Virus record (IMG/VR): IMGVR_UViG_3300004154_000036
Coordinates: 1-28,063 of that record
Strand: one strand, 5' to 3'
From: a virus
Length of the DNA stretch: 28,063 nt
Of this stretch, positions 11,981 through 27,741 are shown piece after piece; within the stretch, counting starts at the first letter, position 1; each line of letters starts with the position of its first letter. The notes beneath the pieces are model-generated. The model saw nothing but the letters and a program-made list of their open reading frames with translations. It made no database searches and was not told the DNA's origin. Made by a program: the position numbers and the translations under genes.

Positions 11981-12516
11981 CCGACCGCGAAATATACCAG
12001 CGCGAATACCGCCAATGGGTAGCCAGCCTTTCGCCGAAGCAACGCGCCAAGCTAAAGGCGCAAGGCTTAGACAAACCCATGGCGGACGACTTTACCAGTT
12101 TCAAGCCAGACCCCGAGCTTAGCCTTGCAAGCATCACTACCGACTTCGACTACGATCAGCTCGACGAACCCGAGAAGCTGGATAATGGTGCGCTGGAGAC
12201 CAAGGCGAAGGCATATGGAGCGCAACTGCTCATCTGGGTGTTTCAGCGCATACAAAGCCACGGCAACGAGCGTATGGCAGCTCTCGACAAGGAGTGTCTG
12301 CTGTTTGCGCTCGGGCTGGAAAATCTGCTGAATGTGAAAACCCAGACGGCTCTCGGCGAAAAGTACGGCATTACTCGAGCCTGTGTCTCAGCCCGTGTAA
12401 AATCGTGGCAGAAGCTTCTGGGCATGAAGCCGTCGTCGATGATGAAATCCGATTCAGCGTGCCGCTCATATCGTCGCGCAAGAATTGCAAATTTGACACG
12501 GAAGGTAGATGTATGA
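11977..12516 (+). CDS. sigma-region-4-like HTH regulatory protein
   Basis: This 179-residue protein starts at ATG 11977 behind CGCAGGAGG. The N-terminal part is basic and helical (REIYQREYRQWVASLSPKQRAKLKAQG). The C-terminal part has a clear helix-turn-helix at about 122-145 (TQTALGEKYGITRACVSARV), of the kind found in sigma region 4 and phage positive regulators. It lies just before the first gene that carries the TTTTGACA-type start motif and at the border between early and late genes, so it is the best candidate for the late-gene activator. No region 2-like promoter-melting part is evident, so calling it a full sigma factor would go too far. Confidence 0.7.
   Translation: MTDREIYQREYRQWVASLSPKQRAKLKAQGLDKPMADDFTSFKPDPELSLASITTDFDYDQLDEPEKLDNGALETKAKAYGAQLLIWVFQRIQSHGNERMAALDKECLLFALGLENLLNVKTQTALGEKYGITRACVSARVKSWQKLLGMKPSSMMKSDSACRSYRRARIANLTRKVDV
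12492..12515 (+). promoter_or_regulatory. start-proximal motif copy 1 (DUF3102 gene)
   Basis: TTTGACA at 12492-12498, 11 bases, then TGTATG at 12510-12515, the last three being the start codon. This copy has three T residues instead of four and is the only one with an SD-like GGAAGG between the two parts. Confidence 0.6.
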
Positions 12517-13151
12517 ACGCACAACTCGAAAAAATTTCCGACCAGAATACCGTAGCTTCCGACATAGTTTCGCAGATAAACGACCTGCATCATCAGGCTG
12601 AACTCATCGCAAGCACCGCCAAAGAACAGGCAGGCAAGGCTGTTGAAATTGCTGTCGAGTGCGGACGTCTTTTGACCGAACAAAAGAAGCGTACAGCACA
12701 CGGCGAATGGATTGCGTGGATAAAGTCTAACTGCCGTTTCTCCGAGGACACAGCGCAAAACTATATGCGCCTATTCCGCAAAGTCTCCCAGCTTGCGGAA
12801 CTCGAAAGCAAGAGCGAAGCCGACGCAAAAACCGACACAGTTCGGTTTATCGATAAGCTCAAGGCAAAGAGCATACGTCAGGCATACATCGCAACAGGTA
12901 TCTTGCCTGAACAGCCCGTAAAAAAACTCGGGGTAGCTGATGTAGGCGATGGTGCTTGCGGCGATTCTAAGCCCATTGTGTCGCACGTAAAGCACATCGA
13001 CGCTATCGTGCTGTGGTACCGCAAGACCGTAGAAAACAAGCCCGCAAGTCGTTGGAAGTTCATAGAACGTGAAGCCCTCATAAACGACCTCACGCCCCTC
13101 ATGGAAATCTACAATGAGCTTGTAGAACTCCAAGAAAACATGGGCAAATAA
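12513..13151 (+). CDS. DUF3102-family protein
   Basis: This 212-residue protein starts at ATG 12513, which overlaps the stop of the HTH gene (ATGA). The middle segment has the DUF3102 pattern: a long helix followed by CGRLLTEQKKRTAHGEWIAWIKSNCRFSEDTAQNYMRLFRK (about 47-87). The family is common on phages and integrated elements and is thought to bind DNA or partner with regulators, but its function is not known. The N-terminus is probably a coiled coil. The gene lies downstream of the regulatory HTH protein and before the tRNA-like element. Confidence 0.85.
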   Translation: MNAQLEKISDQNTVASDIVSQINDLHHQAELIASTAKEQAGKAVEIAVECGRLLTEQKKRTAHGEWIAWIKSNCRFSEDTAQNYMRLFRKVSQLAELESKSEADAKTDTVRFIDKLKAKSIRQAYIATGILPEQPVKKLGVADVGDGACGDSKPIVSHVKHIDAIVLWYRKTVENKPASRWKFIEREALINDLTPLMEIYNELVELQENMGK

Positions 13152-13156
13152 CAATT

Positions 13157-13228
13157 CGCGGAGTAGTTTAACGGCAAAACACCCGACGCATACTCGGGAG
13201 ACTGGCGGTTCAAATCCGCCCCCTGCTT
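13157..13228 (+). tRNA. tRNA-like element with CAT anticodon position, atypical
   Basis: A cloverleaf can be drawn. D-stem GTTT/AAAC has an AACGGCA loop, the anticodon stem is CCCGA/TCGGG, the variable loop is 5 bases, and a perfect T-stem GGCGG/CCGCC has loop TTCAAAT. The anticodon loop reads CGCATAC, so the anticodon would be CAT (Met-type), but position 33 is G instead of the nearly invariant U. The acceptor stem has four Watson-Crick pairs, one G-T and two mismatches, and no CCA is encoded, unlike the host tRNA-Ser. It may be a degraded phage tRNA-Met, a tRNA with changed function, or a tRNA-shaped regulatory RNA. Confidence 0.6.
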
Positions 13229-13273
13229 AAAATAAGAATTGACTTATATATGCAGATTTTTTGCAGTTATATC

Positions 13274-14062
13274 ATGAGTAGTAAATCAATCTTAAAAAAA
13301 TGTTCATTATGCCATAATGTAAAAAAACTTTGTAAATCTCATTTAATATCTGAACTATTTTATAAAGAAACTTATGAGAAGGGTTCTGAAAAATTAAATG
13401 TAATACCATTAGCTAATTCAAATAGAAAATTTAAAACCATACAACAAGGTATGAATATGGACCTATTGTGTGAAGATTGCGAAGGAAAATTTAATCGCTA
13501 TGAAACATATTACGCTAATCTTATTAAAGCGCAAAGTATATGGGATTCAGGAACCGTTATTTACGATTCTGATGGGATTGAGGGAAGGAGCATTACTGGT
13601 TTGGATTATTACAAAATTAAATATTTAATGCTTTCAATAATATGGAGATTGTCGTTTCAATATTCTGGCGAAAAGCTTTTAGATTTAGGGCTTTATCAAG
13701 AAAAATTAAGAGATATACTCTTGAACGAAAAAGATATAAAAGAGTTTGATTATCCAGTATATTTTCAACACATAACATTAGCTGGTAATCCATTTAATAT
13801 AATTGGAAGTGGAGGATTTCATCGGAATAAGAAAGGCAAAAGAAACCATCTTATCTTCTTAAATGATCTAGCATTATTTGCCACAATAGGAGAAGATTCG
13901 GCGGATGAATTAGAACAAGAAATTTCTTTAAAACGAGATGGCAGTTGCATTATGGTAAGTAGCGACTTTCATTCTAGTAACTTGTTTGAAGTATACCAAA
14001 ATGCCATAAAAAAACATAGCGCTAAAATTCATAAAAATGATGCTGTAAAGGAATCTATTTGA
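13274..14062 (+). CDS. HNH-like zinc-binding cargo protein
   Basis: This 262-residue protein starts at ATG 13274 (MSSKSILKKC); an in-frame ATG at 13250 is less likely. It has CSLCHNVKKLCKSHLISELF near the N-terminus and LLCEDCEGKFNRYE at about residue 65. The two CxxC knuckles with a His between them are the arrangement of HNH-type nucleases and related zinc proteins. The remainder is helical and then beta-rich with GSGGFHRNKKGKRNHLIFL. The DNA is markedly more AT-rich than the phage genes on both sides, which points to recent acquisition. A nuclease or defence role is an inference; no known family name is assigned. Confidence 0.65.
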   Translation: MSSKSILKKCSLCHNVKKLCKSHLISELFYKETYEKGSEKLNVIPLANSNRKFKTIQQGMNMDLLCEDCEGKFNRYETYYANLIKAQSIWDSGTVIYDSDGIEGRSITGLDYYKIKYLMLSIIWRLSFQYSGEKLLDLGLYQEKLRDILLNEKDIKEFDYPVYFQHITLAGNPFNIIGSGGFHRNKKGKRNHLIFLNDLALFATIGEDSADELEQEISLKRDGSCIMVSSDFHSSNLFEVYQNAIKKHSAKIHKNDAVKESI

Positions 14063-14233
14063 ACGTCAACACACAGCAGGGGAGTCCGGCAGACCCCTTT
14101 CTCCTTGCGAATGGTTTTTTTGAAAGTTTACACCTTTGGCGATAATTTGGCGGTCAAACCCGCTTGCACAAAGGATTTCAGCGTGGGTGGAAAATTCTGA
14201 AAAGTCACCCTTTTTGACACTTTTCCACCCTGT
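14063..14233. promoter_or_regulatory. regulatory gap before small terminase, with hairpins
   Basis: A hairpin AGGGG...CCCCT (14078-14098) ending in T-rich sequence may terminate the preceding gene. Further on, GGGTGGAAAA (14185-14194) and TTTTCCACCC (14221-14230) form a 10-bp inverted repeat whose right arm ends directly before TGTATG. A second possible pairing, GGGTG with CACCC (14185-14210), is followed by TTTTT and would act as a weak terminator. The arms overlap the start motif of the small terminase gene, so the structure could control its expression. Confidence 0.5.
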
Positions 14234-14236
14234 ATG
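14211..14236 (+). promoter_or_regulatory. start-proximal motif copy 2 (small terminase)
   Basis: TTTTTGACA at 14211-14219, 11 bases, then TGTATG with the ATG at 14234. No SD lies between the two parts; the spacer is pyrimidine-rich. The T-run directly follows a GGGTG...CACCC hairpin. Confidence 0.65.
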
Positions 14237-14842
14237 GAAGAAAACATCGCAAGCAGGATTCTTAGCAAGGACATAGAGAATATCGTTAAAAAAGCCGCCA
14301 GTGGCAAACCATTGAGCAATGCCGAACGCCAACGAATAGAAGCCGCATATGCACAAAAAACTGAAACTGTCCGCTATGCAAAAAATCTAGTGGAATTGGC
14401 AAACGCCCTCGAAGTGAGCAGGCAGTCGATTCACAAATGGCGCAAAAAGGCAGGTTCTCCGAAGGCGCTTTCAAACGGCAAACATAATGTTCAAAAGTGG
14501 CGCGAGTTCATTCGCGATAACGACCTAAGAGAACCCGATACTCCAGAAGAAACCGCCCTTAAAAGCCGCAAGCTTTTGGCGGAAGTAAAGCAGGCGGAAC
14601 TGAAACTCAAAGTCATGGAAGGTACTTATGTTGCCATTGAAAGAGTCCGTGAAGTTTGGATGACACATATAGGGCAAGTTCGTAGCATTCTTGAGAGCCG
14701 ATTCTTAAACGAGCTTCCGCCCATTCTTACGACATTGAATGCCATCCAAATCCGAGAGAAAATGCAGGACGTTCTGGACGAAACTTATAAGGCTATTAGC
14801 ATTGCGGCAAGTTCCATAAAAGAGTCTGTGGACATTGATTAG
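14234..14842 (+). CDS. terS: phage terminase small subunit, probable
   Basis: This 202-residue protein has a helix-turn-helix LVELANALEVSRQSIHKWRKKAG (about residues 53-75) of the Nu1/TerS DNA-binding type, then a long helical region KSRKLLAEVKQAELKLKVMEGTYV, which in such proteins drives oligomer formation, and a C-terminal helical domain. It should recognise the packaging site and load the large subunit. Unusually it is separated from the large terminase gene (20770) by about 6 kb of other genes. The stop codon overlaps the stop of the convergent 14839 gene (TTAG). Confidence 0.75.
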   Translation: MEENIASRILSKDIENIVKKAASGKPLSNAERQRIEAAYAQKTETVRYAKNLVELANALEVSRQSIHKWRKKAGSPKALSNGKHNVQKWREFIRDNDLREPDTPEETALKSRKLLAEVKQAELKLKVMEGTYVAIERVREVWMTHIGQVRSILESRFLNELPPILTTLNAIQIREKMQDVLDETYKAISIAASSIKESVDID

Positions 14843-15141
14843 TATTCTTCTGGGAACAAAAGCGTCGTAACGCTTCTGTCGGCTTCCGTAATTATCCAAA
14901 TGCGCCTCTTGTCTGGCAGGCAGTATTCGCTCATGAGTCGCAAGCCGTCTTTTAAGGCTTCTTCGTTTATGCCTTTGTCCTCATCGCATATATCGCCCCA
15001 GTCGCAATTTCCGTGGCGTATGAGATACGGCAACAGCGGAAACTTATTTTCCTCGCAATAGTTGAAAAGCGCAGATGTCGCCACCACCTGCCCGAAGTTG
15101 AATTTAGAATCTATTATGATGTGTGGGTGTTCTTCGTTCAT
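14839..15141 (-). CDS. small conserved mobile-element protein (CDWGD / ITEADRS family)
   Basis: This 100-residue protein carries a pattern I recognise from many plasmids and phages: FGQVVATSALFNYC, RHGNCDWGDICDEDKGINEEAL, and the end RRIWIITEADRSVTTLLFPEEY. Its function is not known to me; some database entries wrongly link it to restriction enzymes. It starts by ATGA overlap at the stop of the upstream minus-strand DUF2786 gene, so the two form a small operon. It converges with the small terminase gene. Confidence 0.8.
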   Translation of the reverse strand: MNEEHPHIIIDSKFNFGQVVATSALFNYCEENKFPLLPYLIRHGNCDWGDICDEDKGINEEALKDGLRLMSEYCLPDKRRIWIITEADRSVTTLLFPEEY

Positions 15142-15830
15142 GCTATTGCCTTGTTGATTGCTATTGTTTTGCCCTTTGCAAATCCAGCCCGATAGGAGTC
15201 TCCATCGCTTCTGACAGTTCTGCGACGTTCGGACTTAAGGTAGCGTCCGAAGGTGTTGTTGACGTAGCTGTCTATTGCTTCTTTCGTGTTTACCAGAACT
15301 ATCTCATAGTTCTTGCAGGCGGATTCTGATTCTTCCGCCTTGGCTTGCTTTTCCGCTTCCGTGAGGCGTTCTATGATTCCGTAGGAAAGTCCGCGATAAT
15401 AGGAAGCTTTGTCTGCGTTTATGTTTTCCTTCTTGTAGGCATTCCAACAGTCGAAAAATGTTTGGCGCAAATATCCGTGGATGTATTTGGCGATTTCTAT
15501 GTCTTCTGGCGTGCCCACCAACATCATGCCCTTGCTTCCAAAATTGTTAGTAGTCAGAACTCGCACCCGATAAAATCTCAATAGAATATTTATTATGCAG
15601 GTATCGGCGGGATTCAGCATGCCTTTGCGAGAAAAGAATTCCTCGTGCCTGATTCCCATGTCGGATTTTTCTTCAGGGTCTCCCAGATTTGCCATGGAGA
15701 TTTTATACTTTGTCATCAGGCGTTGTGCCATCTCCATCGCGTTCTTTACTTCGCCCTCGGAAGCGTTTTTTCCTTTTGCGAGATTTAACAGTTTTTGTAT
15801 CCTTTTTATGATATGTTTTTCGTTATCCAT
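15138..15830 (-). CDS. DUF2786-domain protein
   Basis: This 230-residue protein has a DUF2786 N-terminal segment (IIKRIQKLLNLAKGKNASEGEVKNAMEMAQRLMTKYKIS, residues 7-45), known from phages and other mobile elements, with unknown function. The remainder is helical, with a basic C-terminus (LKSERRRTVRSDGDSYRAGFAKGK). An SD-like AAGGAAA precedes the ATG. It is transcribed from a sigma70-type promoter whose mirror image drives the divergent 16170 operon. Confidence 0.85.
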   Translation of the reverse strand: MDNEKHIIKRIQKLLNLAKGKNASEGEVKNAMEMAQRLMTKYKISMANLGDPEEKSDMGIRHEEFFSRKGMLNPADTCIINILLRFYRVRVLTTNNFGSKGMMLVGTPEDIEIAKYIHGYLRQTFFDCWNAYKKENINADKASYYRGLSYGIIERLTEAEKQAKAEESESACKNYEIVLVNTKEAIDSYVNNTFGRYLKSERRRTVRSDGDSYRAGFAKGKTIAINKAIA

Positions 15831-15885
15831 ATTGCTTTGTTTCCTTGATTTTATCGGACCTTATTAGCTTCTTCCGACTGTGTTT

Positions 15886-15914
15886 ATATTAGCATATTTG
15901 GCGGAAATTCGCAA
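15886..15914 (-). promoter_or_regulatory. sigma70-type promoter of the minus-strand DUF2786 operon
   Basis: Read on the minus strand: -35 TTGCGA (15914-15909), 17-base spacer, extended -10 TGC-TAATAT (-10 at 15891-15886). The predicted start is about 50 bases before the DUF2786 gene. The -35 and spacer hold GCGAATTTCCGC, an imperfect palindrome shared with the divergent promoter. Confidence 0.75.
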
Positions 15915-16103
15915 TGGTTTTATTCATCTTTTTTAGCGTGAAATAATATTTCATAATAAGGTAAAATAATCTTGAAATCGGCAATAAAACCGCCTCCGAA
16001 AAGCCCCTTCCGCAAGCCTTCATCATAAAGGAATTTGCGATGGCTATGATGGCATCATATAATTATATATGATATATGATGATAAAAAAGACAGATAAAA
16101 ATG

Positions 16104-16132
16104 TTGCGAATTTCCGCGCCTTATGGTAATAT
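16104..16132 (+). promoter_or_regulatory. sigma70-type promoter of the 16170 operon
   Basis: -35 TTGCGA at 16104-16109, 17-base spacer, extended -10 TGG-TAATAT (-10 at 16127-16132). The segment is a near copy, in reverse, of the DUF2786 promoter; TTGCGAATTTCCGC is identical in both. The predicted start is about 30 bases before the ATG at 16170. Confidence 0.75.
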
Positions 16133-16169
16133 AAACGACATAGGAACAACTCTTAGGAAAAGGAAAAAT

Positions 16170-16670: not shown

Positions 16671-17026
16671 TGGAAAAGAAAAGATACTTTCATATGCTAT
16701 GCACCGACGGCGAAAAAGTTCGGTATGAGGGGCGTTTCCAATGCAGGACTAAAATTGAAGCATACAGGCTGTTGCGCTCAAAGGTTGCACGCAAAGATTT
16801 GCGGGGGCTTAAATATACCATAACGGAATTTCCAATAGACGTATTGCGCGAAATAGTGGATGCCATAATAAGCAAAAGACCTTTGCTCGAGGGCGATATA
16901 AGGCGCGATGATGGAATTGCACTGCCGCCCAAAGACCCCAATTCAAAATACTTTTCTCTCGCAGGCTATAAGGGCAATCCCAACCCGCCTACAATTGGAA
17001 ACGTAAAACGCAGACTGGGCGATTGA
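16670..17026 (+). CDS. uncharacterised small phage protein
   Basis: This 118-residue protein starts on the stop of the preceding gene (TAATG). It begins with MEKKRYFHMLCTDGEKVRYEGRF, a short beta-rich part, followed by helical and basic segments. No family or motif is recognised. It overlaps the next gene by one base, so it belongs to the same operon as the HAD-like protein. Confidence 0.7.
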   Translation: MEKKRYFHMLCTDGEKVRYEGRFQCRTKIEAYRLLRSKVARKDLRGLKYTITEFPIDVLREIVDAIISKRPLLEGDIRRDDGIALPPKDPNSKYFSLAGYKGNPNPPTIGNVKRRLGD

Positions 17027-17478
17027 TGAAATTCCTATTAGACCTAAATCAGACACTCATAGATAAGCCCAAAGACGCGCCAAGAATCCGCCCTTTCGAG
17101 CTACAGATAGAAACTGAAACATATCGACAATGGCTTGTTGAGATTCTGCGAGAAAAATACGTCATTCTGATTACTGCTCGTCCGAAAGAATACCGAGCCA
17201 TGACATTGGAAAGAATACAAAGGCTTACGGGCTGGCTTCCGCAGGAATCCTACTTTGCTGAAATCCGTTCATGGCCACATTTCAAAAAGGAGCATCTCTT
17301 GCGGAAATACGTTCTTCCAAAAACCGACAGCGAACGGTTTTTCGGGATAGAATCCAATCCCAAGACAAGGGCGGTATATGCCAGATACGGAATCGACGCG
17401 CTCCCTGCCATAGGCGAAAACGGAGAAAGGATTTTCATAGATTTTGACCCATTTTCAGACGGCGAAGAAAAAGTCTAA
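17026..17478 (+). CDS. HAD-superfamily-like protein, copy 1
   Basis: This 150-residue protein uses ATG 17026 (MKFLLDLNQTL), overlapping the previous stop. It has HAD-like motif I in the form DLNQT (the nucleophile Asp is present but the usual second Asp is Asn), motif II in ILITARP with Thr, a Lys-rich segment (FKKEHLLRK), and motif IV-like GIESNPKTRAVYARYGI with Glu. A second copy at 19639 shares DLNxTL, ITARP, TGWxPQExYFAEI and FGIESNPK, so the pair is a gene duplication. HAD enzymes remove phosphate from nucleotides, sugars or nucleic acid; the DxN change in both copies suggests altered chemistry. It lies before the ParB-like genes. Confidence 0.75.
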   Translation: MKFLLDLNQTLIDKPKDAPRIRPFELQIETETYRQWLVEILREKYVILITARPKEYRAMTLERIQRLTGWLPQESYFAEIRSWPHFKKEHLLRKYVLPKTDSERFFGIESNPKTRAVYARYGIDALPAIGENGERIFIDFDPFSDGEEKV

Positions 17479-17479
17479 A

Positions 17480-17505
17480 TTTTGACATCGCTTCGTCTGT
17501 ATATG
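17480..17505 (+). promoter_or_regulatory. start-proximal motif copy 3 (ParB-like gene)
   Basis: TTTTGACA at 17480-17487, 10 bases, then TGTATATG with the ATG at 17503. The TTG inside TTTTGACA would be an in-frame start (17482), but it is part of the motif. No SD is present. Confidence 0.65.
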
Positions 17506-18147: not shown

Positions 18148-19655
18148 TAAGCATAGAGCCTATTTCCGCCGTAAATCCGTCAACCTATAATCCAAGAACC
18201 GCAGATCCGAGGCGTTTGGATTTAATAGAGCTTTCTTTGCGTAAGCTCGGCTTTATTGCCCCGATATACGCAGACGAAAACGGCGAAATCCTATCAGGGC
18301 ACCAGCGACACTTTGTCGCCACACGGATGGGCTGTACGCACATTCCCGTATGCAGAGTCCCCGCCATGGATTTGGAAAAACGCAAAGCCATCAATATAGT
18401 GTTCAATCGCGGCACAAACGATATGGACATCTGCAAAACTTCGGCGAAAGCAAAAATTCAGCTGGAGTCTATGGATATTCAAAAACTGGCTGATAAAATT
18501 TCTGACAAAAGCGTCGGAAGCGACGAGTTCTTCCGTTGCGCTAAGCCATTTAAAGAGTCTGTAAAAAAGCTCTGTAAAATAAATGCTGGACGCTGGATTC
18601 CCTATGCAAGAGCTATAGCGCGAACTCTCCGAAAGGCGGGAGTCGTCATGCCCATAGTCTGCACTCCAGACGGCAAAGTCGTAAACGGCATAGGTCGCCT
18701 TGAAATGCTTGCCGAGCGTAAAGAAGAATTCGGCGAGGTGGTGTACATTTCAGCAGAAGAAGCGATATTTGCAGACGCCATGATGAATCAGCTTACAATG
18801 GAATTCAATATCCATGAACGCTATGAGGATTTGCTGCGGTATAATTCTTTCCGCAGGGCACGCAGAGTTCGCGAAGAACTTGGCAACGGTTTCATCTTCA
18901 CCGTTCACGGCAATCAGCCCTGCCATAGTTTCGATATTTTTAATCCAAAACAACAAACCTTATGGCGCAAAGAACACGGCAATACGATTTTGGATTTCGG
19001 CGCAGGACACCTTACCGAAACAAAAATTCTGAATACTGCAGGCTTCGACTGTACTCCTTTTGAGCCGTACCATATCGACGTTTCCGAAATAGACAAAAAA
19101 TCGTCTTTGGAAATATCCGAAGCATTCTTGGAAAAAGTGGCAAGCGGTACGGAATGGACTTCGATATTTGTTTCCAGCGTTATGAATTCCGTTCCATTTG
19201 CCAAGGATAGAGAGCATATAGCGGTGATTTGTGCGGCATTATGCAGACCATTCACAAATCTTTATATCTGCGCTTCCAGCACTGAAGAAACAGGCTATAG
19301 ACAGGTGAACGGCAAAGCTTTCAACAATGAATCCAATGCGGGCAATATCGCCTTTCGCTTGGAATACGAAAGCGGAATCAGAATTGGAGATTTTCAGGAT
19401 AAGCCAAAAGTTCAAAAATATCATACGAAAAAAGAGATGTTCGATTTGTGCGTGCCCTTCTTTCGCAATGTAAAAATTCAGTCTCTTTCCAACAATATTT
19501 GCGCGAAATGTTCCTCCGTTAAACGCATACCTTGGGAACGACTCGAAGAAGCTTTGAGGTTTGAATTTGAACTTCCATATCCCGACGGCTCGCGCATGGA
19601 ACTTTCAGAAAAAGCAATTTCAGCCTTCAAAAAACGCTATGATATACTTGGTTGA
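18144..19655 (+). CDS. ParB-ParB-SAM methyltransferase fusion protein
   Basis: This 503-residue protein starts at ATG 18144 behind AAAGGAGA. The first domain (1-110) is ParB/Srx-like with LSGHQRHFVATRMG at 50-63. A second ParB-like part (about 140-230) has VVNGIGRLEMLAER at 179-192. The last half is a class I methyltransferase: motif I TILDFGAGHLTE with Asp284, then a beta strand FVSSVMNSVP and downstream NNICAKCSS, which may bind a metal. The DNA-methylase motif IV (N/DPPY/F) is not seen, so this is not a plain DNA methyltransferase. ParB domains would target the enzyme to a nucleic acid or handle a nucleotide. The product overlaps the start of HAD copy 2. Confidence 0.82.
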   Translation: MISIEPISAVNPSTYNPRTADPRRLDLIELSLRKLGFIAPIYADENGEILSGHQRHFVATRMGCTHIPVCRVPAMDLEKRKAINIVFNRGTNDMDICKTSAKAKIQLESMDIQKLADKISDKSVGSDEFFRCAKPFKESVKKLCKINAGRWIPYARAIARTLRKAGVVMPIVCTPDGKVVNGIGRLEMLAERKEEFGEVVYISAEEAIFADAMMNQLTMEFNIHERYEDLLRYNSFRRARRVREELGNGFIFTVHGNQPCHSFDIFNPKQQTLWRKEHGNTILDFGAGHLTETKILNTAGFDCTPFEPYHIDVSEIDKKSSLEISEAFLEKVASGTEWTSIFVSSVMNSVPFAKDREHIAVICAALCRPFTNLYICASSTEETGYRQVNGKAFNNESNAGNIAFRLEYESGIRIGDFQDKPKVQKYHTKKEMFDLCVPFFRNVKIQSLSNNICAKCSSVKRIPWERLEEALRFEFELPYPDGSRMELSEKAISAFKKRYDILG

Positions 19656-20055
19656 CCTTAATTACACGCTCGTCGGGAATTCCCCAAAATGGGGCGAGCC
19701 AAGGATTTCTCCTTTTGAACGCCAGATAGAACAGGAAATTTATAGGCCTTGGCTTGTGGACTTTTTGCGGGATAAATACGCTATCCTGATAACGGCGCGC
19801 CCGAACAGGTATAGGCAACTTACGCTTGCGCGAATAAAAGAGCTTACGGGCTGGCAACCGCAGGAAGCGTACTTTGCTGAAATTTCAGCGCCACCGCCTG
19901 AAATCAAAGAACATCTGCTTTTGTCATATATATTCCCAAAACACGGTAAAAATACGAAGTACTTCGGAATTGAGAGCAATCCAAAGAGTCGGGGTATGTA
20001 TGAAAAATACGGAATAAAATCCTGCAATCAGACCGATTTTCGATGCGAATTTTGA
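19639..20055 (+). CDS. HAD-superfamily-like protein, copy 2
   Basis: This 138-residue protein uses ATG 19639 (MIYLVDLNYTL) inside the end of the fusion gene. It repeats the layout of the 17026 protein: DLNYT in motif I with Asn at the second acidic position, ILITARP, TGWQPQEAYFAEI and YFGIESNPKSRGMYEKYGI. The C-terminus is shorter by about 15 residues and ends with SCNQTDFRCEF, so this copy may be less constrained or have another partner. The duplicated pair brackets the two ParB-like genes. Confidence 0.75.
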   Translation: MIYLVDLNYTLVGNSPKWGEPRISPFERQIEQEIYRPWLVDFLRDKYAILITARPNRYRQLTLARIKELTGWQPQEAYFAEISAPPPEIKEHLLLSYIFPKHGKNTKYFGIESNPKSRGMYEKYGIKSCNQTDFRCEF

Positions 20056-20074
20056 CATTCAGCTATCTTGTATG
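20050..20074 (+). promoter_or_regulatory. start-proximal motif copy 4 (CmoA-like gene)
   Basis: TTTTGACA at 20050-20057, 11 bases, then TGTATG with the ATG at 20072. The TTTTGA part overlaps the stop of HAD copy 2. No SD is present. Confidence 0.65.
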
Positions 20075-20767: not shown

Positions 20768-20769
20768 GC

Positions 20770-22554
20770 ATGCTATCAGATATTCTTTCAGACGCTTGGA
20801 CTCCAGCAGACAGGCGCAAGCCGTGGAAATGGTGTGAGGAACACATAAAAAGTATTCCGTTTTCGCCCATGCCTGGACCATTCAGGAGTGAAAATTCTCC
20901 GTGGGTGCGCGAAGTTATGGAGGCTATTGTTGACCCCAAAATAAAATTGGTCTCGATGATAGCTGCTGTTCAATCTTCAAAAACGACGGCACCGGAACTT
21001 ACGCTTTGCTACATTATCGCAAATTTGCCTGGACCATGCCTATGGCTTGACCAAACCGACGAAGACGCCAAAGACGAATCCGAAAGTCGTCTCCAAAAGC
21101 TTTTTGAAAGTTGCGAACAGGTAAGGAAGTTCTTTCCCAAGAATAAAAACAAACAGCGCAATTGCACCATACATTTTAACAACGGAATGACCCTTTGGCT
21201 TCTTGGCGCGTATAATAAGACCAATCTGCAAAGACGCTCCATCAGATGGCTTTTCGGGGATGAAACATGGCGATGGCCAGTCGGGCACATGGCGGAAGCG
21301 GAAGCGCGAACTACTGCATTCGGCTGGCTCGGCAAATGTGTTTTCATGAGCCAAGGCGGAGAAGAAAACGACGACACGCACCGCAAATTTGAAACCACCG
21401 ATATGCGCGAGTGGCATTACAAGTGTCCGAAATGTGAAAAATTCATCGCCTACAAATGGGAAAATATCGAGTGGGACGACGACGCAAAAGATGAAAATGG
21501 CGAATATGACTTCCGCAAAATAAATCAGAACACAGCCCTAAAATGCCCCGAGTGTGGCGAATATTTTGAAGACTCCGATCGCATGAGGCGTATTCTGAAC
21601 CGCGATGGAATGTTTATTCCTATGAATCCTAACGCTTCTAAAGAAAATGCGGGGTTTCATTGGAACGCCTTAGCGTCTATGTCATGGGGCAAGCTCGCTG
21701 AACTTTATTTAAGAGCGAAGATAGCGGCAAGAAAAGGCGATTCTTCTCTGTTGCAACAGTTCTACCAGAAACGCCTTGCGCTCCCGTGGAAAGAATTTGC
21801 GGAAGACTACCGTTTGGAAATCGCTTCGTCTGGATACAATTCCGGCGATGCTTGGGCGGAAGAAGGCGGCTTTAACAAGACTGCGGAGATAATTTCACAA
21901 CCGTTTTCGGAGAACGAATGCATTGCTCCATTGAGAATAATGTCTGTCGACGTTCAAATGGACTGTTTCTATCTAGTCGTTCGAGCATGGAGTCCCGAAG
22001 GTTCTAGCCGTCTTTTATGGCATGAAAGAGCCTTAACATGGGAGGATATAGAGGAAGTTCAGAAGCGTTTTCGCGTACTCGACAACCTTGTTTTTATAGA
22101 TGCTGGTTATAATTCCTATGAAGTTTACAAGCAATGCGGAAAGCGAAACTGGATCGCCGTAATGGGCGATAACAGAGCAAACTTTCACCACAGGCTACAA
22201 AGTGGGAAAAGCGTTTTGAGATTCTATTCTCCGGTAAAAAATATCTTTATTTCAAAACAGACAAAATGCCGTATGCACTTTTGGAGTAATCTGAATGTGA
22301 AAGACACTCTCGCCAGAATCCGCCGAAATCAAAACCCATCCGATGGCGCAACGTGGGAAGTGCCTTGTGATATTAGCGAAGACTATCTCAAACAAATGGA
22401 ATCCGAACACCGCATCAAAAAAGGCAATAACTGGATATGGGAACAAATCGGCAACCGCTCCAACCACTACCTAGACTGCGAAGCCATGAATACAGCAGGA
22501 GCGTTGATGTTGAAGATTATTGGCAATGATTCTATGAAAACAGAAGTTTCTTAG
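20770..22554 (+). CDS. terL: terminase large subunit, GpA family
   Basis: This 594-residue protein is the packaging motor and nuclease. The ATPase half has a Walker A variant AAVQSSKTT (Gln68, Lys71, Thr72) and Walker B WLFGDE (Asp164, Glu165), as in lambda GpA. Two CxxC pairs (CPKCEKF and CPECGEYF, near 220 and 258) form a zinc site typical of the family. The C-terminal nuclease half includes MSVDVQMDCFYLVV and LVFIDAGYNS with conserved Asp residues. The last 23 bases overlap the end of the convergent TIR gene. Confidence 0.95.
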   Translation: MLSDILSDAWTPADRRKPWKWCEEHIKSIPFSPMPGPFRSENSPWVREVMEAIVDPKIKLVSMIAAVQSSKTTAPELTLCYIIANLPGPCLWLDQTDEDAKDESESRLQKLFESCEQVRKFFPKNKNKQRNCTIHFNNGMTLWLLGAYNKTNLQRRSIRWLFGDETWRWPVGHMAEAEARTTAFGWLGKCVFMSQGGEENDDTHRKFETTDMREWHYKCPKCEKFIAYKWENIEWDDDAKDENGEYDFRKINQNTALKCPECGEYFEDSDRMRRILNRDGMFIPMNPNASKENAGFHWNALASMSWGKLAELYLRAKIAARKGDSSLLQQFYQKRLALPWKEFAEDYRLEIASSGYNSGDAWAEEGGFNKTAEIISQPFSENECIAPLRIMSVDVQMDCFYLVVRAWSPEGSSRLLWHERALTWEDIEEVQKRFRVLDNLVFIDAGYNSYEVYKQCGKRNWIAVMGDNRANFHHRLQSGKSVLRFYSPVKNIFISKQTKCRMHFWSNLNVKDTLARIRRNQNPSDGATWEVPCDISEDYLKQMESEHRIKKGNNWIWEQIGNRSNHYLDCEAMNTAGALMLKIIGNDSMKTEVS

Positions 22555-23284
22555 ATGGTAGCAGTCTATATAAAATATCCAATGTATCTTGCCCAAATTT
22601 GCTTTTGCTTTTCGCTTCATTAACCCATTTTTTAATGGTATCAGCCGAGAGTCTCTTCATATGCCCTAAGTCAACCGTGTATTCAAACTCCGCAGCCTCT
22701 TTTATCATTGCAAAATTGATTTGTTGTTCTCTGTGTTCTAGCCTAGGACGTTTCTTTATAAGTTTGCTTATTGACAACTCGTGATAAATCCATGGGGACA
22801 TTGTTTTTGATAAGTAAGTATCCATACTTAACGAATTGGGTGTATTGTAAAAAAATAAACACTCACATTTGTCAATCATCATGCTTAATGCGGTAGACAA
22901 CATCATGTTAACATTACTGGACATCCAAAGTAATTCTGATTCATTTTTTGGTGGAAATCTTTCTTTTAATAAATTTAAAAGGTTCATAGAGTATCCCCAA
23001 AGATATGAATCAATGAACGGAGATAATCCTAACTTTTCCTCCAAATATCCCGCAAGTAGCGTTGCTGTTCTAATATCTTTGTGTGAATGTGAAATGAAAA
23101 CATTTGCATCTACTAAGGGAAACCAATTTTCCTGCATTTCAGAAGCATCAATTCTGTCTTGATATACTATATATTCCTTCAGTTTATCAAGTATTTCGGC
23201 ACCTCTTGTTTCTTGTGTTGCCTTTGCTAATTCATAGTCAATACCGCTTATATTTAAGCTTTGAATTATAAAACCTCTAAACAT
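22532..23284 (-). CDS. TIR-domain cargo protein
   Basis: This 250-residue protein starts at ATG 23284 (MFRGFIIQ), with AAAGGAG 6-7 bases ahead; longer open frame upstream has no such site. A TIR-like domain covers about residues 58-180: ANVFISHSHKD (60-70), GLSPFIDSYLWG (86-97), and SPWIYHEL (163-170) with Glu169 at the position of the catalytic Glu of TIR NADases. Bacterial TIR proteins often consume NAD+ in anti-phage defence. The gene is AT-rich, antisense to the packaging/head operon and inserted between terminase and gpW-like genes, so it looks like acquired cargo expressed from the prophage. No partner gene is next to it. Confidence 0.82.
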   Translation of the reverse strand: MFRGFIIQSLNISGIDYELAKATQETRGAEILDKLKEYIVYQDRIDASEMQENWFPLVDANVFISHSHKDIRTATLLAGYLEEKLGLSPFIDSYLWGYSMNLLNLLKERFPPKNESELLWMSSNVNMMLSTALSMMIDKCECLFFYNTPNSLSMDTYLSKTMSPWIYHELSISKLIKKRPRLEHREQQINFAMIKEAAEFEYTVDLGHMKRLSADTIKKWVNEAKSKSKFGQDTLDILYRLLPSKKLLFS

Positions 23285-23342
23285 TATGTACTCCTTTTGC
23301 GTATTTAATTCCATTCTGCTATAAGATTTAAGAAAGGCAATC

Positions 23343-23367
23343 TTTTTGACAGCCGCCGCCTTGTATG
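23343..23367 (+). promoter_or_regulatory. start-proximal motif copy 5 (gpW-like gene)
   Basis: TTTTTGACA at 23343-23351, 10 bases, then TGTATG with the ATG at 23365. No SD is present. A small AAGATT...AATCTT hairpin precedes the T-run. Confidence 0.65.
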
Positions 23368-23622
23368 AGCGATTCATACAATTACAAACGCGGCTATTCT
23401 GTTCCAGAGCTTGAGGCGCTTCTGGCGCAAGTTAAGGCGGAACGGGAAAAATACCTGCAATCGGCAAGCGACAGCGGGAGTTCATATTCCCGCATAGCTT
23501 TGGCGGAAATTGAGAAGAAGTTCAATGGCATTATGGATGCCTTGGAATTTCTCGCGCCGGCAATATACAAACCGCAAAGTCGCGTATCTTTTAGCGGCGT
23601 TATGGGAGGCGTTATTCAGTGA
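23365..23622 (+). CDS. gpW-like head-tail joining protein
   Basis: This 85-residue protein sits between terminase and portal, the place of lambda W. It has two helices (YSVPELEALLAQVKAEREKYLQS and SRIALAEIEKKFNGIMDALEF) and a short C-terminal strand, as in the gpW fold; lambda gpW is 68 residues. It would complete filled heads before tail joining. The stop overlaps the portal GTG start. Confidence 0.7.
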   Translation: MSDSYNYKRGYSVPELEALLAQVKAEREKYLQSASDSGSSYSRIALAEIEKKFNGIMDALEFLAPAIYKPQSRVSFSGVMGGVIQ

Positions 23623-25046
23623 ATGTCCGCAAAAAAATTGCTAATTTGTTTTATGGTATTGGTTATGCTTTTGAGTCTGCTCGCGCTAGCATATCTCGCG
23701 GAAATCCCAATACTGCCAATCCTACGGACGCTCGCCACGAACTACCATCCTATACTCGCACAGAGCTTGTAAGAAAGGCTCGTTATCTTGAAAAAAACTC
23801 GGGGCACATTCGCGGAATTCTGCGCGACCTAAAGGTGTATGGCATAGGCAGGGGCATTTATCCGAACGCCAAATCAGACAGCCAAGACTGGAACAAGCTC
23901 GCAGAAGATTGGTTTTTCCGTTGGTCACGCCACTGCGAAATCTCCAACAGATTTTCGTGGAAAGAGTGTCAGGCTATGATACTTCGCGCCCTTGTCGTTG
24001 ACGGCGAAATCTTCGTGATAAAAACTTTCGACGCTTTCGGAATACCAAAAATTCAGCTGATAGAAAGCCACCGCCTTATCTCGCCATCGTCGGAAACATC
24101 GGAACGTGTAATAGACGGAATGGAATTCGACAAGCACGGCAGAGTTAAAAACTACCACTTTTTTTTCGGCAATGAAGGCAATACGACAAAAGTTCCGGCG
24201 TCCGCTGTTTTGCATATTTTCGACCCCGAGCGTATTTCGCAGGCGCGGGCATATCCGCATATTCAGCACAGCATAAACGACGTAATCGACCGAAAGGAAA
24301 TCCTCGCTCTTGAGAAAAAGAAGGTTAAATCCATTTCGGATATTGTGCATATTCTAAAAGGCGGAAACAACTTGAGTCTAGACGGCGACTATAAAGTAGA
24401 TGTCGGAAATAAGCCCGACGGAACTTCTCCCGACACGCTAAACCGCATACTTGGCGGAAAGAATATACGCATAGACCCCGATGAAAGCATAGACGTTCAC
24501 GAGAGCAATATTCCAAGCCCGACATTTTCGGGATTTTTGACGGAACTCGACCGTTCTGGAACGCTCGGGGTTCTCCCATATGAATTCGTCGTAGATCCTT
24601 CAAAAATCGGCGGAGCTTCCGTGCGTCTTATAGCGTCTAAAACACAACGCTACATAGATGACATCACGCAAATTATCGACGAGCGTTTCAACGACGCCGT
24701 ATGGTTCTTCGCCATAGGCTGGGCGGTATCGCAAAACATTCTGCCGACTCAAAATTGGTGGTGGTACTGCACATGGACGCACCCCCGCAAGCTTACTGTG
24801 GACGCTGGGCGCGAAGAACAGCAAAACCGCGCCAATGTTGAAATGGGTCTTAAAACTCTGGAAGAATCCTTCTCCGAATGCGGTTTGGATTTTGAAGATG
24901 AAATGCGCACCCGCGCCGACAATGCTCGGTTTATTATGAATCTTGCGGGACTCCCCGAAAATGAACCTATCCCGCTATGGATGCTCTACAAAGTGAACGG
25001 AACGCAAATACTCTCCACGGAAGAAATCAAAAAAGATGAGAAATAA
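23619..25046 (+). CDS. phage portal protein, lambda family
   Basis: This 475-residue portal starts with GTG at 23619, which overlaps the preceding stop and has GGAGG 9 bases ahead. The segments TRTELVRKARYLEKNSGHIRGILRDLKVYGIGRGI and CQAMILRALVVDGEIFVIK are typical of lambda-type portals, and the C-terminal wing/crown regions follow. It forms the dodecameric gate of the head. The end overlaps the protease start. Confidence 0.92.
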   Translation: MNVRKKIANLFYGIGYAFESARASISRGNPNTANPTDARHELPSYTRTELVRKARYLEKNSGHIRGILRDLKVYGIGRGIYPNAKSDSQDWNKLAEDWFFRWSRHCEISNRFSWKECQAMILRALVVDGEIFVIKTFDAFGIPKIQLIESHRLISPSSETSERVIDGMEFDKHGRVKNYHFFFGNEGNTTKVPASAVLHIFDPERISQARAYPHIQHSINDVIDRKEILALEKKKVKSISDIVHILKGGNNLSLDGDYKVDVGNKPDGTSPDTLNRILGGKNIRIDPDESIDVHESNIPSPTFSGFLTELDRSGTLGVLPYEFVVDPSKIGGASVRLIASKTQRYIDDITQIIDERFNDAVWFFAIGWAVSQNILPTQNWWWYCTWTHPRKLTVDAGREEQQNRANVEMGLKTLEESFSECGLDFEDEMRTRADNARFIMNLAGLPENEPIPLWMLYKVNGTQILSTEEIKKDEK

Positions 25047-25860
25047 CATTTTCCTAAACGGCGTCTGCAAACCTTGGAATATCCATGCGGGGACATTCCT
25101 TGCGCTATCGCTACGCACTCTTGCCGAAGTTAAGGGCTCCGATTCTCTTTCGGGTTGGCGTGAAAAGTTCTCTCAATTTATCCCGCAACGCGAGTCTTTG
25201 AAAATTGACGAAAACGGCATTGCCCACATCGCAATTCACGGAACACTTTTCAATAAGGAAGCTCCGTATTTTGTGGCAGGCTACGGCGGCACTGATTACG
25301 AAGAAGTTTTATCCGACATTGCCGTAGCGCAAAAAAGCGCGAAGGGGATATTTCTTAGCATAGACTCTGGCGGCGGGCACGCTTGTGGAAACGAACGTGT
25401 TTCCAAAGCTATATCGCAATGCAAAAAGCCTGTGTTTGCTCATGCCGATGGTATGTGCTGTTCGGCGGCTTATGCGATAGCGTCGGGTGCGTCTTATATT
25501 TGCGCTTCTTCTGACGCCACAATAGGCAGCATAGGCACGATACTTCCGCTTATGGATATTTCGGGGTTATGGGAAAAGCTCGGGGTAAAGGCGGATTACA
25601 TCACAAACAAGGAAGGCGACCTCAAAGCCGCAGGCTATCCGCCGAGCCAAAGCGAAGATGAAAGAAGTTCTTTGCAGGCGGAGACGCAGGAATATTTTGA
25701 ACTCTTTAAAGCCCACGTTTTGAAGCATAGGGATATCGCAAAAGAAGATATGCGCGGACAGGCCTTTGTCGGGCAATCCGCATTGAAGCACGGTCTGGTT
25801 GACGAAATTTGCGACAGAAATTCCGCATACAAAAAACTGTATCTTTTGACACAGCGTTAA
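25036..25860 (+). CDS. S49-family head maturation protease
   Basis: This 274-residue protein is a ClpP/SppA-fold serine protease as in lambda C. It shows GIFLSIDSGGGHACG, ADGMCCSAAYAIASGA with nucleophile Ser143, and DLKAAGYPP with Lys197 as the likely general base. It should cut scaffold and other head proteins during assembly. In lambda the scaffold is made from an internal start in the protease gene; here a separate scaffold-like gene follows. Confidence 0.92.
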   Translation: MRNNIFLNGVCKPWNIHAGTFLALSLRTLAEVKGSDSLSGWREKFSQFIPQRESLKIDENGIAHIAIHGTLFNKEAPYFVAGYGGTDYEEVLSDIAVAQKSAKGIFLSIDSGGGHACGNERVSKAISQCKKPVFAHADGMCCSAAYAIASGASYICASSDATIGSIGTILPLMDISGLWEKLGVKADYITNKEGDLKAAGYPPSQSEDERSSLQAETQEYFELFKAHVLKHRDIAKEDMRGQAFVGQSALKHGLVDEICDRNSAYKKLYLLTQR

Positions 25861-25869
25861 TTGTATATG
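25844..25869 (+). promoter_or_regulatory. start-proximal motif copy 6 (scaffold-like gene)
   Basis: TTTTGACA at 25844-25851 inside the end of the protease gene, 10 bases, then TGTATATG with the ATG at 25867. No SD is present. It allows separate high expression of scaffold-like and capsid genes. Confidence 0.65.
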
Positions 25870-26280
25870 GACGAATCCAACAAAGAAAAAACTCTCGCCG
25901 ATGCGCTTTCAAAAATCGAAACGCTTACGGCTGAAAATACGAAGCTGGGTGCGGATTTGGAAAATGCGAATATTCGTATTTCCGAACTTCAAACCGAGCT
26001 TGACGCTGAAAAGACTACGCTTGCTTCCGCAAAGGAAAGCCTCGCAAATCTTGAAGGCAAGCACAGAGACATCGATAAAGAAGTCTCTCTTAAAGTCGCG
26101 GAAATTGCGGCTAAAAGCGGCGTCGAGCCTATCGAAAACGTTTCGGAAGGTGGCGACGATGAAAGCATAGAAGAACTTGCCAAGCGCATAGACGCCGCCC
26201 ACGGCGTTGAAAAAGCCAAGCTCGTGGAATCCAACTACGACAAAATCATGAACGCGCTTAGAAAGGTACGCCAGCAATGA
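25867..26280 (+). CDS. scaffold-like coiled-coil head protein
   Basis: This 137-residue protein uses ATG 25867 rather than the TTG at 25861. Residues 10-80 form a long coiled coil (LSKIETLTAENTKLGADLENANIRISELQTELDAEK), followed by a helical, acidic C-terminal part. Placed between the protease and the major capsid gene, it is probably the assembly scaffold cut by the S49 enzyme. The stop overlaps the capsid start (ATGA). Confidence 0.7.
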   Translation: MDESNKEKTLADALSKIETLTAENTKLGADLENANIRISELQTELDAEKTTLASAKESLANLEGKHRDIDKEVSLKVAEIAAKSGVEPIENVSEGGDDESIEELAKRIDAAHGVEKAKLVESNYDKIMNALRKVRQQ

Positions 26281-27170
26281 ACGCCATTCCACAAGCATTA
26301 AGGCGTTCGCTTATCCTTAAGTCGGCGATGGAAGAATTTAAGCACAAGCTGATTTCATTGGGTTTGTTCTCGACGGTTCTTCGCAATCTTCCACTTGAGG
26401 GCAACGATGAAATCGACATTCCCTATGTGCCGCTTGCAACTTCCGCTTCAAAGGATTTTGACGGAACGTACAAGTTCGACAAGGGCGACTTGAAGTCTAT
26501 CAAAATTACTGTCGATAGGCGCAAGTATCAGTCTTTGACCTATACTTCCGAAGAAAAGGCGCGCCAGCCGTATTTCGACCCAGTGACTCTTGGCAGGCTC
26601 AAGGGTGCAAAGCTTGCCGAAGACGTTCTTCTCGACATCTTGAGCGTAATCACGCAGGCAAACTATGGCGATGCTATCCTTACGCGAAACGCCACGGACT
26701 TCGATACGGACGACATCATAGATCTTGAAACCAAAATCGACGAGCTTGAATGGCCCGACTCTCCGCGGGGAATGTTGCTGAAAAGCTCCTATATTGGGAA
26801 TGTCAAAAAGGACATCAAGGACTCTGGCGGTATTGGAAATTTCGGATTCACGGCTTTGGGCAATTTGCCGAACCTTCTCGGCTTTTCGTTCTCGAAGTTT
26901 AACAGGCTTCCCGACAACGGCGAAAAGTTGCAGGGCTTTGTGGTGTATCCGTCGGCTATCATGGTGGCTCTTGCGCCCATCGCGCCTGTGCCAAACGTCA
27001 TGAAACAGCTTTCGACTTACACAACCTATACAGATCCGCAGACTGGGTTGACCCTCGAATACAGGGCTTGGGGCGACGCAGACACAGACGCTTCTAAGGA
27101 AATCATAGAGTGCAACTACGGCTTCGGCGTGGGCGAAAAGGCGGCTCTTAAACGTATCGTATCGGAATAG
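26277..27170 (+). CDS. major capsid protein
   Basis: This 297-residue protein follows the protease and scaffold-like genes. It has an N-terminal helix, a beta-rich middle (NDEIDIPYVPLATSASKDF, ITVDRRKYQSLTYTSEEKAR), helices (AKLAEDVLLDILSVITQANYG) and the strand-rich part MLLKSSYIGNVKK typical of HK97-fold coat proteins of this type. Length and position fit; the sequence alone does not name a close relative. Confidence 0.85.
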   Translation: MNAIPQALRRSLILKSAMEEFKHKLISLGLFSTVLRNLPLEGNDEIDIPYVPLATSASKDFDGTYKFDKGDLKSIKITVDRRKYQSLTYTSEEKARQPYFDPVTLGRLKGAKLAEDVLLDILSVITQANYGDAILTRNATDFDTDDIIDLETKIDELEWPDSPRGMLLKSSYIGNVKKDIKDSGGIGNFGFTALGNLPNLLGFSFSKFNRLPDNGEKLQGFVVYPSAIMVALAPIAPVPNVMKQLSTYTTYTDPQTGLTLEYRAWGDADTDASKEIIECNYGFGVGEKAALKRIVSE

Positions 27171-27171
27171 C

Positions 27172-27417
27172 ATGAACTCATATATTACGATAGGCTACAA
27201 AAAGAACGGCGCTTCGGAAATCCTTGCGACTCCCGAAGTGCCGTATCCAAAACACCGCGAAATCTTCAAAACCCTTACGGGCGACTATACGGACGTTGAA
27301 CTCTGGAGCCGTGCTATGGGAAAGATAAAACAGCGAAAAATGAAGGCTTCAAAAATATCAAAAACTTCAAAAGTTCCCAAAACTGCAAATATTTCAAAAA
27401 AGGAAAATGAACAATGA
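27172..27417 (+). CDS. small head-region protein with KISKTSK-rich tail
   Basis: This 81-residue protein starts one base after the capsid stop codon. The first 55 residues (SYITIGYKKNGASEILATPEVPYPKHREIFKTL) form a short globular part; the last 25 are a basic, low-complexity tail (MKASKISKTSKVPKTANISKK). A related stretch occurs in the linker of the 9705 replication protein. Function is not known; a small capsid-associated or DNA-binding role is possible. The stop overlaps the next start. Confidence 0.7.
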   Translation: MNSYITIGYKKNGASEILATPEVPYPKHREIFKTLTGDYTDVELWSRAMGKIKQRKMKASKISKTSKVPKTANISKKENEQ

Positions 27418-27662
27418 GAGAAAATGACATTTATAGAATCAGACCCGAACACACCCATGAAGGCGGACTGCAAATTTGCGACGACGGCGCGGACGGCACT
27501 GTTCAGAAGCTTGGCTTCTTTGGCGTTGCCCCAACAGTTCAAAGAGCAAATTCGGACCAAGCCAAACTTGCTGAATCTGCGACTCTCGCGCAGGCAGTAA
27601 AGCTCATAAACGAGCTACGAGACGCGCTTGTCGAAAAGGGGTTGATTAAAGGTTCTGAATAA
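27414..27662 (+). CDS. head fiber / decoration-like small protein
   Basis: This 82-residue protein has the pattern LGFFGVAPTVQRA followed by ATLAQAVKLINELRDALVEKGLI, which I recognise from small phage head-fiber or decoration proteins encoded next to the capsid gene. It starts by overlap with the previous stop (ATGA) and is the last gene before a terminator. Confidence 0.7.
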   Translation: MRENDIYRIRPEHTHEGGLQICDDGADGTVQKLGFFGVAPTVQRANSDQAKLAESATLAQAVKLINELRDALVEKGLIKGSE

Positions 27663-27688
27663 ATTTTTCATAACCTTGATGTTGATGG

Positions 27689-27721
27689 GAGGGCTTCTGA
27701 GAAATTGGAAGCTCTCTTTTT
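27689..27721 (+). terminator. intrinsic terminator after capsid operon
   Basis: A 9-bp stem (27689-27697 with 27708-27716, one G-T pair) with a 10-base loop is followed by TTTTT. The T-run is also the first part of the next start-proximal motif. Confidence 0.88.
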
Positions 27722-27741
27722 GACATTTCGTTATTTGCATG
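27717..27741 (+). promoter_or_regulatory. start-proximal motif copy 7 (head-tail connector gene)
   Basis: TTTTTGACA at 27717-27725, 10 bases, then TGCATG with the ATG at 27739. No SD is present. Since a terminator stops transcription directly before it, this copy must be close to, or be, a new promoter. Confidence 0.7.

Follow-up and report, generated by a model that had tools for sequence, protein, structure and literature searches.

A candidate leaderless late promoter in a family of temperate Verrucomicrobiota phages

The 28,063-base virus record IMGVR_UViG_3300004154_000036 (the window, by which we mean this whole stretch) carries an integrase gene, a replication module (AAA_24 ATPase, exonuclease, helicase and primase-like AAA_25 protein) and then genes for terminase, portal, protease and major head protein. 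Seven copies of a motif containing TTGACA stand just ahead of start codons in this stretch, which raises the question of what signal they provide. An earlier sequence-only reading offered three possibilities: that the motif is a phage-specific promoter whose transcripts have little or no leader, that it is an activator box, or that it starts translation without a Shine–Dalgarno (SD) sequence. Our analysis indicates that the motif is probably the late promoter of a temperate Verrucomicrobiota phage family, producing leaderless messages under phage-encoded specificity, with an early helix-turn-helix (HTH) protein as its most likely reader.

A TTGACA box at late-gene starts

We located all seven predicted copies on the plus strand. 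Copy 1 (12491–12515; TTGACA at 12493–12498, 14 nucleotides (nt), ATG at 12513) precedes a DUF3102 gene and overlaps the 3′ end of the HTH gene; copy 2 (14211–14236; TTGACA at 14214–14219, 14 nt, ATG at 14234) precedes the small terminase gene; copy 3 (17480–17505; TTGACA at 17482–17487, 15 nt, ATG at 17503) a ParB-like gene; copy 4 (20050–20074; TTGACA at 20052–20057, 14 nt, ATG at 20072) a methyltransferase gene; copy 5 (23343–23367; TTGACA at 23346–23351, 13 nt, ATG at 23365) a gene of 85 amino acids (aa) before the portal gene; copy 6 (25844–25869; TTGACA at 25846–25851, 15 nt, ATG at 25867) a scaffold-like gene before the major head protein gene; and copy 7 (27717–27741; TTGACA at 27720–27725, 13 nt, ATG at 27739) lies near the end of the window. 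The box thus begins 19–21 nt ahead of each ATG, as had been stated, leaving 13–15 nt between box and start codon. Copies 1, 3, 4, 5 and 6 lie within or at the head of tightly packed gene runs, consistent with the proposal that copies head gene units. Copy 7 had been placed behind a terminator, and a strong terminator-like hairpin with a U-tract directly precedes it (27681–27721, plus strand; −22.7 kcal/mol, z −6.75), its U-tract being the TTTTT of the motif. Six of the seven starts lack an SD sequence, as the sequence-only reading had noticed, AAGG at copy 1 being the sole SD-like match.

The large terminase of the window is 88% identical to those of two prophages, A and B, of Puniceicoccaceae bacterium Marseille-Q1082, and 56–61% identical to those of a Verrucomicrobia bacterium LW23 prophage (D) and a metagenome contig (L007, or C). 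Because its closest terminases lie in Verrucomicrobiota prophages, the host of the window phage is probably a verrucomicrobiote. The relatives examined comprised 80 contigs, recognised by a related terminase (61–65% identity, one Marseille prophage excepted), most with a GC content of 54–66%. The motif extends into the tail genes and across the whole phage family, and about 80 relatives, mostly GC-rich, carry it.

To score enrichment, hexamers were counted when they lay 13–17 nt ahead of the ATG or GTG of an open reading frame of at least 80 codons. TTGACA ranked top of all hexamers in the window, with 7 of its 16 occurrences at starts against a background of 2.2% (P = 2.5 × 10−8), and was also best in A (11/24) and B (11/23; P = 3 × 10−13 each) and in contig C (5/8). 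The motif is therefore concentrated at starts rather than equally dense away from them, and it is retained upstream of the orthologous genes, all seven sites being kept in both close relatives, A and B. When the seven orthologous sites of the window, A and B were aligned, 126 of 126 box letters were identical, compared with 44% of the first ten spacer letters, 42% of upstream letters and 64% of coding letters.

A search for the full string allowing two mismatches found 5 matches where 8.0 were expected, no more than chance, since conservation does not extend to the second half, TG(T/C)ATG. That half had been taken for a fixed element; relatives instead carry TAT, TTT, CCT, GAT, GGT or GGC ahead of ATG or GTG. 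The invariant core is TTGACA with a start codon 13–17 nt downstream. GC-rich relatives have the motif without the T-run and without TGT, with the consensus (G/T)TTGACA-C-N9/10-G-(C/T)|(A/G)TG, which rules out TTTT and TGT as essential parts; both are partly AT-rich context. The site of copy 2, for example, reads TTTGACA-N13-GTG in L007. In a logo of 152 sites, no conserved element was seen upstream of the box to −46.

Six relatives (L066, L081, L089, L092, L103 and L104) also carry a box variant, TTGACG, 16 nt ahead of similar starts (ATG-GA(A/C/T)-GCC), which suggests a weaker class of site. Five others (L047, L052, L062, L064 and L065) each have a minus-strand start bearing its own TTGACA-N13-GTG site, which in L062 and L064 belongs to an inverted ParB-like gene adjoining terS.

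A fixed offset and the probable transcription start

Distances from box to start codon are one-sided. Among the relatives they numbered 2 at 12 nt, 126 at 13, 73 at 14, 31 at 15, 27 at 16, 12 at 17 and 1 at 18, a hard lower edge for which control hexamers gave no counterpart. In an independent set, assembled through the HTH protein alone, there were none at 10–12 nt and then 39, 19, 6, 9 and 7 at 13–17 nt. Where the start codon lies 15–17 nt away, a G-Y|R step (Y, pyrimidine; R, purine) is still found at the 13/14 position in 17 of 38 sites, against 5.0 expected in shuffled spacers (P < 5 × 10−5), and so stands 1–4 nt ahead of the codon, as in GC|ATC-ATG and GC|ACAG-ATG. By the same rule, the 5′ end at copy 3 would be A17501 of GT|AT-ATG.

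Start codon usage shifts at the same position. GTG accounts for 32 of 99 starts at 13 nt but only 7 of 107 at 14–17 nt (P = 2 × 10−6), and the full counts at 13 nt are ATG 67, GTG 32, TTG 2 and CTG 0, with TTG and CTG at background. In mycobacteria, leaderless translation likewise accepts ATG and GTG but not TTG or CTG (PMC4633059), and the match to this codon rule would make position 13 the 5′ end of the mRNA. Finally, five contigs contain a divergent gene pair, a RuvC-like or nuclease-like gene and a ParB-like gene, whose back-to-back boxes are separated by 8–10 bp and whose start codons by about 50 bp. Together, the one-sided distances, the fixed G-Y|R, the restriction of GTG and the divergent pairs point to what is probably a fixed 5′ end 13–14 nt behind the box.

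These patterns would fit a promoter with three parts: a single box, usually GTTGACAC but TTTTGACA where the phage is AT-rich; a spacer rich in C and devoid of a −10 element; and a G-Y|R initiator that puts R at 13 (or 14) nt from the box. This R would be the first transcribed base, with the box at −19 to −14, so that the mRNA would begin at the start codon or 1–4 nt ahead of it, giving leaders of 0–4 nt. The first gene of each unit would then be translated as a leaderless message, and inner genes through SD sequences and coupling. An SD was found ahead of 0 of 82 motif starts, and inner genes of motif-headed units in the window do carry SDs (18144, 23619 and 27414). The hairpin ahead of copy 7 and the inserted minus-strand gene ahead of copy 5 are further points in favour of a promoter. 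Of the three functions first proposed, the phage-specific promoter with leaderless or near-leaderless mRNA is thus clearly favoured by the one-sided distances, the fixed G-Y|R and the divergent pairs.

We considered whether UUGACA might instead act in the mRNA as an SD-free translation signal 13–17 nt ahead of the start codon, there to be recognised by an RNA-binding protein or by ribosomes that the phage has modified. The box is always paired with a start codon that lacks an SD; on its own it carries little promoter information, TTGACA occurring 16 times in the window on both strands; and in some relatives (L054) successive genes about 250 nt apart each bear one. However, the hard lower edge at 13 nt, the G-Y|R kept at a fixed distance from the box even when ATG lies 2–4 nt further on, the confinement of GTG to 13 nt, the SDs of inner genes in the same window units, the roughly 50 bp between the start codons of divergent pairs, and the position of copy 7 right behind the hairpin all speak against such a signal, which we regard as improbable.

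Alternatively, long late mRNAs might be cleaved between G-Y and R, 13 nt past UUGACA, by a phage nuclease specific for that sequence. Such cleavage would create leaderless gene heads and account no less well for the constant 13-nt offset and for the leaderless codon rule; several sites do lie inside dense gene runs. Yet for the divergent pairs, and again for the site trailing the hairpin, one would have to postulate an additional promoter, so far unseen, within adjacent genes, and the linked factor described below resembles a DNA-binding HTH protein rather than a nuclease. RNA processing of this kind is accordingly a poor prospect in our estimation.

TTGACA is also the −35 consensus of sigma70 promoters, and early genes of these phages seem to use it as such, the integrase genes of A and B having an ordinary TTGACA-N18-TATAAT upstream. 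For the motif sites to be ordinary sigma70 promoters, with TTGACA as a normal −35 box, is nevertheless almost out of the question. A −10-like hexamer follows TTGACA at 14–17 nt, a range that includes the sigma70 distance of 17 nt, in 0 of 208 nonredundant sites and at 18 nt in 1; a transcription start at the distance such promoters require would remove the start codon; and no −35 element was seen at motif sites apart from the TTGACA box itself. The sequence thus already rules this type out. Sigma54 promoters have GG and GC dinucleotides 10 bp apart, at −24/−12. That geometry was likewise rejected, since the logo contained no GG...GC pair and only TTGACA, the C following it and G-Y|R. The earlier judgement that the spacing fits neither sigma factor therefore stands.

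Phage specificity and the helix-turn-helix protein

The 2.7-Mb Marseille-Q1082 genome (G001) has 6 occurrences of the strict AT-rich motif, each of them inside prophage A or B. The LW23 genome contains prophages that use TTGACT (9/19 and 10/19 boxes at starts, with 0–1 for TTGACA) and others that use TTGACA (10/20 and 9/20). Because both kinds share one host genome, the box specificity is phage-borne. A housekeeping promoter of the host is ruled out by the absence of the motif outside the prophages of G001, by a count of 1/64 in control regions (stretches of Verrucomicrobiota genomes from the same set) and by the presence of two box types in one genome.

The best candidate for the phage-encoded reader is a 179-aa HTH protein encoded at 11977–12516 on the plus strand, the last early gene before copy 1, which itself has a strong SD and no motif. 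Members of its family are 140–200 aa long and are encoded by an early gene that accompanies the motif. The first motif site overlaps the end of the HTH gene in the window, A, L028, C15, C17 and others, and overlaps or closely trails it in the window, A, B, C, L028, L029, L032, L034, L036, the LW23 prophages and D. The gene was found in 9 of 12 records searched, the other three being contigs of 26–34 kb that may be fragments. G005 has a differing early module (family A DNA polymerase, resolvase-type integrase), yet keeps both HTH gene and motif. A frameshift interrupts the HTH gene of prophage B (G001:C1:1515001–1515503); it could be a sequencing error or mark a prophage unable to switch on its late genes.

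Distant homologs gave the same association. A profile search recovered homologs of the HTH protein in 17 of 289 genomes of the phylum, and all 17 fetched homolog stretches (at least 6 kb) had at least two TTGACA sites at starts. Pooled, TTGACA-N13–17-start sites beside these profile-found homologs numbered 80/154, against 1/64 in the control regions (P = 6 × 10−15). A peptide-pattern scan for the protein in viral contigs found it in two relatives only, so that the profile searches worked better. Sigma70_r4 matches were obtained for 6 of 16 homologs (best E = 4.9 × 10−6), the window protein having none, and in a PHROG scan nine homologs weakly matched a sigma-factor family.

Scans with Pfam recognised no RNA polymerase gene among the early genes of the window, G006 and G005, and therefore we assume that the host core polymerase is used. 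A search of 10 relatives for a T7-type polymerase gave no match, but its positive control gave none either, so it says little. The early HTH protein would accordingly be the most likely agent directing host RNA polymerase to the boxes, although it is a candidate rather than a proven factor. An activator box, the second function first suggested, may be joined with the promoter.

The promoter could also be real while its specificity comes from a factor other than the HTH protein, for example a different protein of the phage or a phage RNA polymerase that is packaged in the virion or went unrecognised. Linkage cannot prove binding, genes such as those for DUF3102 and ParB-like proteins recur too, and the T7-type search lacked a working positive control. 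Against this, distant HTH homologs found by profile alone adjoin motif sites, the Pfam scans of early genes revealed no polymerase, and in the window the motif itself stands ahead of the DUF3102 and ParB-like genes. We consider a different factor unlikely, if the most credible of the alternatives. A narrower version of the promoter model has a small stand-alone HTH protein, resembling sigma region 4, recognise the canonical −35 sequence TTGACA (or TTGACT) at −19 to −14 and place the host core polymerase so that it starts 13 nt downstream without a −10 element, making late mRNAs obligately leaderless throughout the phage family; we put this forward only tentatively. If true, it would represent a bacterial-type promoter class outside the sigma70, sigma54 and phage-polymerase types.

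Several observations weigh against a promoter read by this protein. The stretch from −13 to −7 is AT-poor (23–32%, compared with about 44% in the flanks), and a promoter with such a stretch and no −10 element is hard to square with sigma70-type opening; with a start at position 13, moreover, the box would occupy −19 to −14, whereas a −35 box lies about 16 bp further away. Linkage and weak profile matches are the grounds for naming the HTH protein as candidate. The form encoded by the window has no Pfam match, its structure model is of moderate quality (pLDDT 76, pTM 0.44), and fold searches returned sigma region 4 matches (Z up to 5.6) among generic HTHs, with best scores typical of generic HTHs, placing it no further than generic HTH/sigma-4 similarity. 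In G007, the first site lies more than 1 kb behind the HTH gene. The 5′ ends are predicted from sequence, and because the sequences are related by descent the P-values are optimistic and overstate independence. The strength of the case lies in the agreement among independent kinds of evidence.

Related systems and neighbouring features

Late promoters of the jumbo phage AR9, used by its non-virion RNA polymerase (nvRNAP), read AACA-N6-TA/G (PMC5312081, PMC9209446). They resemble the motif in having one short box, a short fixed spacer, a pyrimidine–purine start, late genes as targets and phage-specific recognition. They differ in that the box lies about 7 nt from the start rather than 13, that a phage multisubunit polymerase with a sigma-like subunit reads them, whereas none was found here, and that mRNA leaders are 26–491 nt long, compared with the 0–4 nt predicted here. 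The Ltr/RinA late regulators of Gram-positive temperate phages are likewise small proteins encoded at the end of the early genes, directly before their promoter. In phi13, which is of this type, one late promoter has a sigma-A TATA box and direct repeats (PMC13123087), whereas here many promoters would be spread across the late region, with no −10 element. As to homology with the Ltr/RinA/ArpU families, in the PHROG scan 1 of 16 family members weakly matched a 'late transcriptional activator' family (E = 0.076).

In the leaderless promoters of Deinococcus-Thermus, the −10 region is next to the open reading frame (PMC12340547). As proposed for our motif, the promoter abuts the start codon, there is no SD and the mRNA is leaderless; the difference is that the abutting element is the −10 itself, which is missing here.

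The Verrucomicrobia phage P8625 (NC_029047, Puniceicoccales) also has TTGACA at a fixed distance before SD-less ATGs. There, however, the distance is about 30 nt, and TTGACA is accompanied by a −10 resembling TATTGG and by a GTATCC/GGATAC dyad; this is ordinary sigma70 geometry, and no HTH homolog was found in P8625. Because this phage and the integrase genes of A and B show ordinary TTGACA spacing, the geometry of the motif is special to the present phage family. In its own right, P8625 (L109) presents a different type of late promoter in a related host, leaderless-looking TTGACA-N17-TAT(T/C)(G/T)G-N7-ATG with the dyad GTATCC-N7-GGATAC, at 5412, 10736 and 15558.

In T4, phage factors for late (gp55/gp33) and middle (MotA) transcription give the host polymerase a new box while a −10-type element is kept; none was seen at our sites. 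Phage-specific late promoters are known, but in the open-access papers searched we found none that combines one TTGACA box 13 bp ahead of the start with built-in leaderless translation and lacks a −10 element, nor did these papers describe the present motif or report that Verrucomicrobiota phages make leaderless transcripts. If the promoter reading is right, the factor and its box form a pair with two natural specificities, TTGACA and TTGACT, that could show how a minimal factor opens GC-rich DNA. The motif would also serve as a signature for late genes and true starts in these poorly known phages, and the system as a test bed for leaderless translation in Verrucomicrobiota.

Further features of the window stand beside the motif copies. 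A tRNA gene with anticodon CAT (13157–13228) lies between the DUF3102 gene and the small-terminase unit and adjoins an AT-rich gene (13250–14062). A paralogous gene pair (17026–17478 and 19639–20055; phrog_32036, function unknown) flanks both ParB-like genes and is retained by prophages A and B. A minus-strand gene (22532–23377; phrog_33368, with a very weak TIR_2 match, E = 0.005) has been inserted between terL and the portal module, with its 5′ end at copy 5. Copy 5 stands directly behind this gene, which is missing there in prophages A and B; their counterpart site comes directly after terL, and the inserted gene is possibly a cargo gene.

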